NCBI GenBank assembly: GCA_014239955.1
Contig: JAAZXW010000004.1
Coordinates: 1 to 64,000, forward strand
DNA length: 64,000 nucleotides
DNA from: Methanobacteriota archaeon
GTDB lineage: Archaea; Thermoplasmatota; Poseidoniia; Poseidoniales; Thalassarchaeaceae
Reading direction: 5' to 3'
Part shown: positions 42,610 to 45,858 of the stretch, one piece after another
Layout of the letters: every line of letters begins with the position of its first letter
How positions within the stretch are numbered: position 1 is the first letter of the stretch
Made by a program: the position numbers and the translations under genes
Notes under the pieces: generated by a model
The model's input: the letters and a program-made list of their open reading frames with translations, nothing else
The model's database searches: none
Told to the model about the DNA's origin: nothing

Positions 42610-43914
42610 TTAGGAAATCTCCAGAGTATCGTTGTTGGATGGGATATGGACCTTTGTTTCCTCTCCAATATCTTCTGCTAAGGCTTTGGCTGCTGATTCG
42701 TCAGCATGGAATATTACCACGTGTGAGGGGCCGCAGTCGCTAGCGAATTTGCAGAGGGAGGGGTGGTCGGCGTGGTTGGAGAGATCGAACTTGTCTATCT
42801 CTAGTGGGATCCGGGTCTGCTTTCCGAAAATGGGCAGGGAACCGAGCTCTAGCAGCCTCCTTCCTCCGGACCCCTCTGCCTGGTAACCAGTCAGCAGGAT
42901 AGCATTGGAACCATCATGCCTCAGCCTGTTCAGGTACCACAAGGCAGGCCCCCCATCCAGCATCCCGCTTGTCGTGACAATCACATCCGCCCCCAGTGCC
43001 TTCTTCCTGTCCGACTTCCCTGTGACCCTCCTGGACCATCGGTAAGCTGCCTCCATCGCTCGGGAGTCCTGGATGAACTCCGGGCATCCAAGCCATTCCC
43101 TGGTAACCCTCGTACCCATCCCATCGTAGTGGACATCAAGGGTCGGTGCCTCTCTATGGAGAATCCGGAGGATGTCCTGCCCCCTCCCTGAAGCGAACGC
43201 CGGAACCAGAGCTACGCCCCCCCTGGAGACGACTTCCAGAACCCTGGAGACGAACCTCGCCTCCTCCTCCGCTCTATCCGGGTGCGTCCTCCCCCCGTAT
43301 GTTCCCTCGAGGCAGAGTATATCGCAATCCACTGGGGTTGCCTTGGGTGCGTTCGGGCTATCCCTTGTGTCAATGTCCCCCGTCCACAGGATTGTTGCGT
43401 CTGGGGTCTGGATCTCGATCATGGCAGCACCGGGAATGTGTCCAGCGGGATGGAGCCTGCATTTCCACTCGCCCACATCGAACCACGTGTCGAACTGATG
43501 GGGGATCCACGAGTCGAGTGCGACCTCCATGTCCCTCTTGTCCCAGGCGAGTGGGTATCCTTCGATATCGGAGACTTTGTAGGTGTCAGCCCACATTATT
43601 TCCGAAACCGCTGCAGTAAGGTCAGTGCCATGGAGCATAGTCCCATGGGATGTGAGCCATGGAGCCATCCCAATGTGATCTATGTGAGCATGGGTCATTA
43701 TGGCGTGTTTCACCGGGGGGGCTTCAGAGGGGTATTTCGGGGGCCTCGTTGGGGCTAGGCCATAGTCGATGAGAAGCCTGGTGCCAGCGCTGTCCTCTAT
43801 GACACAACCTACGTTCCCCACCTCCCTTGCTCCTCCTAGGAAATGTAGCCTTATTCCTTCGTTGGGGGGGTTTTTCGGATACGGTGAGGATGACCCTGCC
43901 GTGTAGAGCACCAC
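42610..43914 (-). CDS. Beta-CASP metallo-beta-lactamase nuclease (RNA exonuclease-like)
   Basis: About 434 residues. The metallo-beta-lactamase core has HAIMTHAHIDHIGMAPWL (HxHxDH), followed by WTGDIDTRDSPNA and CLEGTYGGRTHP. The beta-CASP insert and C-terminal part contain ALVPAFASGRGQDIL, VTTSGMLDGGPALWYL and FDLSNHADHPSL and a final VIFHADES. The family processes RNA (RNase J, CPSF-like). The open frame runs to 43959 through an origin-like G-string, so the start is probably a GTG at 43914 or 43911. The start is uncertain, as no good SD is seen. Confidence 0.85.
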   Translation of the reverse strand: MVLYTAGSSSPYPKNPPNEGIRLHFLGGAREVGNVGCVIEDSAGTRLLIDYGLAPTRPPKYPSEAPPVKHAIMTHAHIDHIGMAPWLTSHGTMLHGTDLTAAVSEIMWADTYKVSDIEGYPLAWDKRDMEVALDSWIPHQFDTWFDVGEWKCRLHPAGHIPGAAMIEIQTPDATILWTGDIDTRDSPNAPKATPVDCDILCLEGTYGGRTHPDRAEEEARFVSRVLEVVSRGGVALVPAFASGRGQDILRILHREAPTLDVHYDGMGTRVTREWLGCPEFIQDSRAMEAAYRWSRRVTGKSDRKKALGADVIVTTSGMLDGGPALWYLNRLRHDGSNAILLTGYQAEGSGGRRLLELGSLPIFGKQTRIPLEIDKFDLSNHADHPSLCKFASDCGPSHVVIFHADESAAKALAEDIGEETKVHIPSNNDTLEIS

Positions 43915-43948
43915 GAAATTTGTTCGGGGGCAGGAGGGATATGAATGG

Positions 43949-43983
43949 CACCCCCCCAACCCCCCTATTTCCTATGGAAAGGA
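43949..43983 (-). other. Left Origin Recognition Box-like element (inverted)
   Basis: Read on the minus strand this has CCATAGGAAA, 8 bases, then TTGGGGGG. Aligned to the right element it keeps the GGAAA-N8-TTGGGGGG frame. The archaeal ORB consensus combines a short dyad (TTCCAGTGGAAAC) with a downstream G-string, which is what is seen. The pair faces inward/outward symmetrically around an AT-rich core. Confidence 0.7.
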
Positions 43984-44060
43984 TATAGAACTCAAACGGG
44001 ATCTTTCAGGAGTCTTGTGTAACCATTATAGAACGCAAACCGAAGACCTTCAAATGGCTG

Positions 44061-44100
44061 TTTTCACCATAATAAAATAAGATAATAATCCTTTATTTCA
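44061..44100. other. AT-rich tract, candidate DNA-unwinding element
   Basis: A stretch of about 40 bases in which G and C are rare, in an otherwise moderately GC-rich window, lying between the two ORB-like elements and closer to the right one. This is the expected site of initial melting by Orc1/Cdc6 and MCM loading. Confidence 0.6.
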
Positions 44101-44114
44101 CCGGAAGACTTTGT

Positions 44115-44143
44115 GTATAGTGGAAACATAGGGGTTGGGGGGT
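44115..44143 (+). other. Right Origin Recognition Box-like element
   Basis: The core AGTGGAAACATAGGGG followed by TTGGGGGG closely matches the ORB consensus (AGTGGAAAC plus G-string). It overlaps a spurious TTG-started extension of the ferredoxin frame, which itself supports moving that gene's start downstream to 44165. Confidence 0.72.
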
Positions 44144-44164: not shown

Positions 44165-44404
44165 ATGCCCAGCATCATGGCCAGGCAAATCGACACAGTT
44201 TTCGTGGTCGATGAAGATCGTTGCTTCGGTTGTGCGGCCTGTGTCGGCCTGTGCCCGGTGGACGCCCTCTCTCTCGAAGGCCTCTTGGTGTTCGTAGACG
44301 AGTCAAGTTGCACTCACTGCGAACACTGCATCCCAGCTTGCCCGGTACACGCACTCTCCCTTTCCGTCGAGAAAACAAACCCTGTCCACGGTGTGCTTGC
44401 ATGA
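44165..44404 (+). CDS. Ferredoxin-like protein with two [4Fe-4S] clusters
   Basis: A 79-residue protein with two ferredoxin cluster motifs, CFGCAACVGLCP and CTHCEHCIPACP (CxxCxxCxxxCP twice). It carries electrons in the cytoplasm. The start is ATG 44165, preceded by GAGGTGGG at suitable distance; another ATG (MARQIDTVFV) lies at 44177. The stop overlaps the start of the next gene as ATGA, so translation is coupled with the small Rossmann protein. The pair may form a two-subunit electron-transfer unit. Confidence 0.88.
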   Translation: MPSIMARQIDTVFVVDEDRCFGCAACVGLCPVDALSLEGLLVFVDESSCTHCEHCIPACPVHALSLSVEKTNPVHGVLA

Positions 44405-45060: not shown

Positions 45061-45858
45061 ATGGGCATAGTCAGTGAATACATGTGCGACAGGACCCACG
45101 GCACCAGGCACGCGATCGTTATAGACCCAGCCGACCAGACTCCTGACATCGCAGCTAACCGCGCCCTGGCCGCGGCTCACGCAGGCTCCAGCATGATACT
45201 GGTGGGTGGGTCCACAGACACAGACATGGAGAATGTACATGCCACCATTGTTGCGATCAAGGAGGCGCTGGAACTCGTGTCCTGGGCAGCAAGTCAGGAC
45301 TCAGACGCGGATGCTGGCTCGGGAGAAATCCCAGTCGTCCTATTCCCCCAAGGTGCAACGGCATTGTCCCCTGCAGCGGACGGAATCACGTTTATGGTGC
45401 TCATGAACTCGATGGACCAACGCTTCCTCATCGGAGAGCAGGTGAAGGGGGCCCCCTTCGTCAAGGAGGCAGGCATCGAACCAGTTTCAATGGGGTATCT
45501 GATATGCGAGCCTGGAGGCAAGGCCGGGCAGGTTGGCAAGGCAGACCTCATTGGACCCCAACAAACAGAGAGGGTGGCAGCATATGCCATGGCAGCGCAG
45601 TTCCTGGGCTTCAGGCTCTTCTACCTCGAGGCGGGAAGCGGCGCGGAGTACCCCGTTAACCCAGCTTTGGTCAAGATTGCACGAGAGTCATGCGACCTCC
45701 CGATAATTGTCGGAGGTGGCATCAGGGACTCACACGCTGCAAGGGCCGCTTCAGAGGCCGGTGCCGATTGGATCATCACAGGCAATATCACAGAGGAGTA
45801 CGATGACGCCAGTGAGCTCCAGACGGTTCTGACAGACCTGATCAGCGGTATCGCCTGA
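45061..45858 (+). CDS. Geranylgeranylglyceryl phosphate synthase family protein
   Basis: Archaeal lipid enzyme joining geranylgeranyl diphosphate to glycerol-1-phosphate. TIM-barrel motifs: HAIVIDPADQTPD near the N-terminus, AGSSMILVGGSTDTD, VVLFPQGATALSP, YLEAGSGAEYPV and IIVGGGIRDSHAARAASEAG then WIITGNITEEY. 265 residues. The sequence resembles group II GGGPS. With the reductase-like flavoprotein at 3.4 kb it shows that archaeal ether lipids are made here. Upstream genes ferredoxin and Rossmann protein are tightly linked. Confidence 0.93.
   Translation: MGIVSEYMCDRTHGTRHAIVIDPADQTPDIAANRALAAAHAGSSMILVGGSTDTDMENVHATIVAIKEALELVSWAASQDSDADAGSGEIPVVLFPQGATALSPAADGITFMVLMNSMDQRFLIGEQVKGAPFVKEAGIEPVSMGYLICEPGGKAGQVGKADLIGPQQTERVAAYAMAAQFLGFRLFYLEAGSGAEYPVNPALVKIARESCDLPIIVGGGIRDSHAARAASEAGADWIITGNITEEYDDASELQTVLTDLISGIA

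Follow-up and report, generated by a model that had tools for sequence, protein, structure and literature searches.

A probable ORB-type chromosomal replication origin, remote from its predicted initiator gene, in Poseidoniales archaea

We propose that the gap between a beta-CASP gene and a ferredoxin gene in a 64-kb stretch of DNA (hereafter the window, 64,000 nucleotides of one contig) from a Thalassarchaeaceae (MGIIb Poseidoniales) archaeon is very probably an origin of chromosome replication of the oriC1 (ORB) type. The proposal builds on an inverted ORB pair that is conserved at a fixed place in the order, an AT-rich spacer between the two elements, an ORC1-type initiator, and a switch in strand asymmetry at the pair. 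Poseidoniales are among the most abundant archaea of the surface ocean and, to our knowledge, have no cultured member; in the open-licence literature that we searched, we found no description of a Poseidoniales replication origin. A located origin would allow ocean growth rates to be derived from peak-to-trough coverage in existing metagenomes. The preliminary description of this DNA had already called the site a probable replication origin, and the conserved pair and the strand-asymmetry switch found there support that assignment.

Architecture and conservation of the ORB pair

The gap contains the two inverted G-string elements of the preliminary description, both fitting GGAAA-N8-TTGGGGGG at the place where they had been reported (Table 1). 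Both also have the ORB form TTCCAGTGGAAAC-N3-4-GGGGT, and the consensus of the relatives is TTCCAGTGGAAATAAGGGGG. The left element had been described as the more degenerate at the dyad, and this must be reversed: in the left ORB the TTCC..GGAA dyad is complete and the matrix score is the higher of the two, and it is the right ORB (GTATAGTGGAAACATAGGGGTTGGGGGG) that is without the TTCC arm. The 40-base AT-rich tract reported between the elements is indeed there, since positions 44061-44100 of the 135-bp spacer form the most AT-rich 40-mer in the whole window (82.5%). The flanking genes point outward as described, beta-CASP to the left and ferredoxin, then GGGPS, to the right. As judged by alignment of relatives, a gene-free interval of ~260 bp lies between the start codons at about 43914 (a GTG aligned with the ATG of relatives) and 44177. 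By sequence inspection, both flanking genes seem to have their TATA-like elements outside the ORB pair, that of the beta-CASP gene possibly about 27 bp upstream of its start, and the spacer is therefore dispensable as a core promoter.

Table 1. Coordinates of the ORB pair and neighbouring features (positions in the window)
Feature	Position	Strand	Description
Left ORB	43949..43979	-	TTCCATAGGAAATAGGGGGGTTGGGGGG read on minus strand; full dyad, double G-string; matrix score 26.1; kept in relatives
AT-rich spacer, presumed DNA unwinding element	43980..44114	.	64% AT overall; best 40-mer 82.5% AT
Right ORB	44115..44143	+	GTATAGTGGAAACATAGGGGTTGGGGGGT; TTCC arm lost; double G-string; matrix score 19.4; kept in relatives
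Beta-CASP metallo-beta-lactamase (RNase type) gene	42610..43914	-	Pfam Beta-Casp, Lactamase_B, RMMBL; start by alignment
Ferredoxin (2 x 4Fe-4S) gene	44177..44404	+	Pfam Fer4; start is the ATG kept in relatives (alignment)
GGGPS (PcrB family) gene, conserved neighbour	45061..45858	+	Pfam PcrB; synteny
Possible TATA element of beta-CASP gene, outside ORB pair	43937..43945	-	suggested by inspection of aligned TTCATATCC

We scored sites with an ORB matrix built from relatives and trained on the beta-CASP/ferredoxin locus, so that elsewhere it gives other ORB types conservative scores. Sites scoring 17 or more are rare: counting the true ORBs, both strands of 904 kb contain only five. The loose pattern GGAAA..GGGG..TTGGGG has three matches in the window's own genome (a draft of 22 contigs and 1.28 Mb), two of which are the ORB elements; the third, at C17:49410, lies inside an unrelated reading frame and was rejected as an ORB.

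A GGGPS search returned 19 loci, in records of MGII/Poseidoniales or marine Euryarchaeota, and a beta-CASP search reached a second family, presumably MGIIa, beyond the Thalassarchaeaceae (families 2 and 1, respectively). In the relatives the beta-CASP–ferredoxin block is kept and both ORBs align in the gap, with most of the spacer varying. Among 37 loci collected regardless of ORBs and with enough upstream DNA, 36, drawn from both families, have an inverted ORB pair at this same gene junction, with spacers of 124-154 bp; in the one exception (G030) the pair is on another contig, on the ferredoxin side of the break. Conservation beside the same genes, which the preliminary description had proposed as a check, is therefore found. 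The exact pair pattern occurs in 53 of the 293 genomes of the order, and a reversed control in one. Sequence was fetched for 28 loci with matches on both strands, and every one of them is at the beta-CASP gene; two further matches on one strand (G053 and G295) look like chance. We also considered whether the elements themselves are chance G-rich repeats in an intergenic region. Although G-rich runs are found elsewhere in these genomes, the scarcity of high-scoring sites and the conservation across the order both count against this, and it is excluded for practical purposes because the pair is kept at nearly every locus with a spacer of nearly constant length.

A motif sampler run on the spacers found nothing common to the order; its one result was an element of family 2 around GACGCGA, with fixed spacing. 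In one genus of family 2 (L114-L128) the spacer contains the fixed GACGCGA together with recurring words similar to TTACTTCGT, close to the ferredoxin side. All genomes except that of G037 are drafts, and many assemblies (L006, L007, L009, L010, L012, L014) break no more than a few kb from the presumed origin, mostly on the beta-CASP side, which perhaps reflects a variable region on that side.

Strand asymmetry at the pair

Cumulative GC skew reaches its maximum and cumulative AT skew its minimum at the site, within bin size, both in the window's own genome, where the analysis covers one contig, and in the closed relative G037 (2,064,136 bp). Because genes also diverge at the site, skew was recomputed at fourfold-degenerate sites per gene strand. 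On the own contig the strand component of GC skew falls from +0.118 left of the site to -0.157 right of it, and that of AT skew rises from -0.159 to +0.096. When fourfold-degenerate sites were scanned for changepoints with a correction for gene orientation and no knowledge of the ORB position, the best changepoint of this contig fell at 44,082, 36 bp from the ORB centre at 44,046, with a log-likelihood ratio (LLR) of 175.5 as compared to a maximum of 55.1 in 100 gene shuffles, a null that ignores local autocorrelation. The resolution of the scan is one gene boundary, and the chosen boundary is thus the ORB gap itself or its neighbour. The changepoint is strong in G048 (184 bp from the pair; LLR 194 versus a shuffled maximum of 42), modest in G042 (214 bp; 68.5 versus 56) and marginal in G037 (206 bp; 38.8 versus 39.6). 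The coincidence is not exact in G036: the changepoint is 33 kb off, although it comes to lie about 1 kb from the pair when only the right-hand part is scanned. The skew test suggested by the preliminary description, run in part, hence places a gene-orientation-corrected switch at the pair.

The strand switch is the strongest evidence for a replication origin over an operator only. If the ORBs were operators, Orc1 or another protein would regulate the divergent beta-CASP and ferredoxin genes through them, and no replication would start here. The G-string of each ORB does point at a gene, beside a TATA-like element, and a single ORB before mcm (see below) has the same geometry although mcm is not known to be an origin. 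Regulation would, however, leave unexplained (i) the corrected strand switch in several genomes, (ii) the AT-rich spacer of fixed length and (iii) an ORB pair that, in a sister group, sits between the 3' ends of two genes. We therefore consider an operator-only role highly unlikely.

The sister group is a third family of the same class, presumably MGIII. In its genus g23 two inverted ORBs, separated by about 70 bp, enclose a very AT-rich spacer (L248:1400-1530, L249-L251, L253) and lie between two convergent genes, which, read by eye, appear to encode glycyl-tRNA synthetase and phosphopantothenate synthetase; an operator role makes little sense in such a position. In G299 the pair is on contig C7 and orc1 on C3. 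A scan of one 80-kb stretch gave no significant switch at the sister-group pair. Compared with Poseidoniales, the architecture recurs in this group at another locus, and there too orc1 lies elsewhere.

Our assignment of the site as an origin makes no claim that it is the only one, and is compatible with the site being one of two or more origins, perhaps not dominant in every species. We regard such a multiplicity as possible but rather improbable. It would account for a second switch of the same AT polarity in the closed G037 chromosome, at about 1,224,700 (~1.225 Mb; L175, L297), almost opposite the pair; against it, no ORBs or ORB pair were found at that switch, and the neighbour glyS has no significant counterpart switch near it in G047, G048 or G042. 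A second conserved origin near glyS was rejected on the latter result. A second origin, an inversion or an effect of the terminus could each explain the second switch in G037.

A predicted initiator encoded in trans and an ORB before mcm

The own genome encodes two Orc1/Cdc6 proteins, one on contig C20 and one on C22, and the window is on C14, in agreement with the earlier remark that no orc1/cdc6 gene is nearby. The protein encoded on C20 (P0001) combines an AAA+ domain with a Cdc6_C winged helix, and its nearest matches are ORB-binding Orc1-1 proteins: it aligns nearly full length, across AAA+ and winged helix, with Aeropyrum ORC1 (2v1u; E 8.6e-95) and with Sulfolobus Orc1-1 (2qby chain A; E 2e-90). 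On the basis of these similarities, we infer that P0001, whose orthologues are present across the order, is an ORC1-type initiator and the predicted binder of the ORB pair.

An orc1/cdc6 gene beside an ORB-type origin is typical, not universal, and an origin that does not adjoin its initiator gene is unusual. The window's genome lacks this adjacency; in the closed G037 chromosome about 438 kb separates orc1 from the ORB pair, and no genuine ORB or ORB pair beside orc1 was found in the Poseidoniales checked, so the notion of an origin unlinked to its initiator gene holds for all of them. An ORB-like site 4-5 kb downstream of orc1 in several genomes was rejected, being coding and following the conserved protein motif S-x-G-N-x-G. 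Upstream of orc1 in the own genome (L001:200-615) the DNA is AT-rich and has a weak core, CTGTGGAAACCTCAAGAG, without a G-string.

In the mechanism that we propose, Orc1/Cdc6-1, encoded in trans on another contig, would bind both inverted ORBs, its winged helix contacting the ORB dyad and its AAA+ domain the G-string. Facing one another from either side of the AT-rich spacer, the two complexes would melt this DNA and load two MCM helicases, and forks would depart both ways along the outward-facing genes. The position, the architecture and the strand switch are observed features of the site; binding of the initiator, melting of the spacer and firing are predicted by analogy with Haloarcula hispanica oriC1 (see below).

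A single non-coding ORB is also located before mcm, the helicase gene, in the own genome (G000:C2:18153-18172; L242:6152-6171). This ORB is conserved in at least 14 of the 16 Poseidoniales genomes scanned for ORBs, in both families, and lies 65-110 bp before the gene with its G-string towards mcm; in most family-1 loci a partial core, TGCAGTGGAAG or similar, is found about 50 bp further upstream. In the four genomes that have both on one contig, mcm and the presumed origin are 92-102 kb apart (by subtraction). A targeted search of the open-licence literature returned no report of an ORB in an mcm promoter. Orc1 is predicted to bind the mcm ORB as well, as a regulator or at a titration site. 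Whether Poseidoniales Orc1 acts in trans on two targets, an origin detached from the initiator gene and the ORB in the mcm promoter region, is in our judgement evenly balanced. If it does, the amount of initiator would govern the firing of the origin as well as the supply of helicase; alternatively, the mcm ORB would serve to titrate the initiator, in parallel to the titration of DnaA by datA. The ORB at mcm points to an initiator-helicase link that can be tested.

Comparison with known ORB-type origins

One of the closest known parallels is found in the haloarchaea. In Haloarcula hispanica oriC1, two inverted ORBs together with AT-rich DNA constitute the minimal replicator. Autonomous replication there requires each of the ORBs and each of the G-strings, and it is the AAA+ domain of Orc1/Cdc6 that recognises the G-string (PMC3936714). 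The Poseidoniales site has in common with haloarchaeal oriC1 the two inverted ORBs, the extended G-strings and the AT-rich region between them, but haloarchaeal oriC1 adjoins cdc6 (PMC3936714) and the Poseidoniales site does not. The extended G-string has been called halophile-specific (PMC3936714), yet it is present in the marine Poseidoniales lineage.

The Methanomassiliicoccales belong to the same phylum-level branch as Poseidoniales, and their ORB, GTTCCAGTGGAAATGG-AGGGGTA, sometimes extended by GGGGGT, likewise occurs in pairs (PMC4153887). These pairs are located up- or downstream of orc1/cdc6.1 (PMC4153887), whereas orc1 is on another contig in the window's genome. In G316 (L240), another member of the phylum, ORBs are again directly beside orc1. 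Since ORBs adjoin orc1 both there and in Methanomassiliicoccales, initiator and origin appear to have been separated on the way to Poseidoniales.
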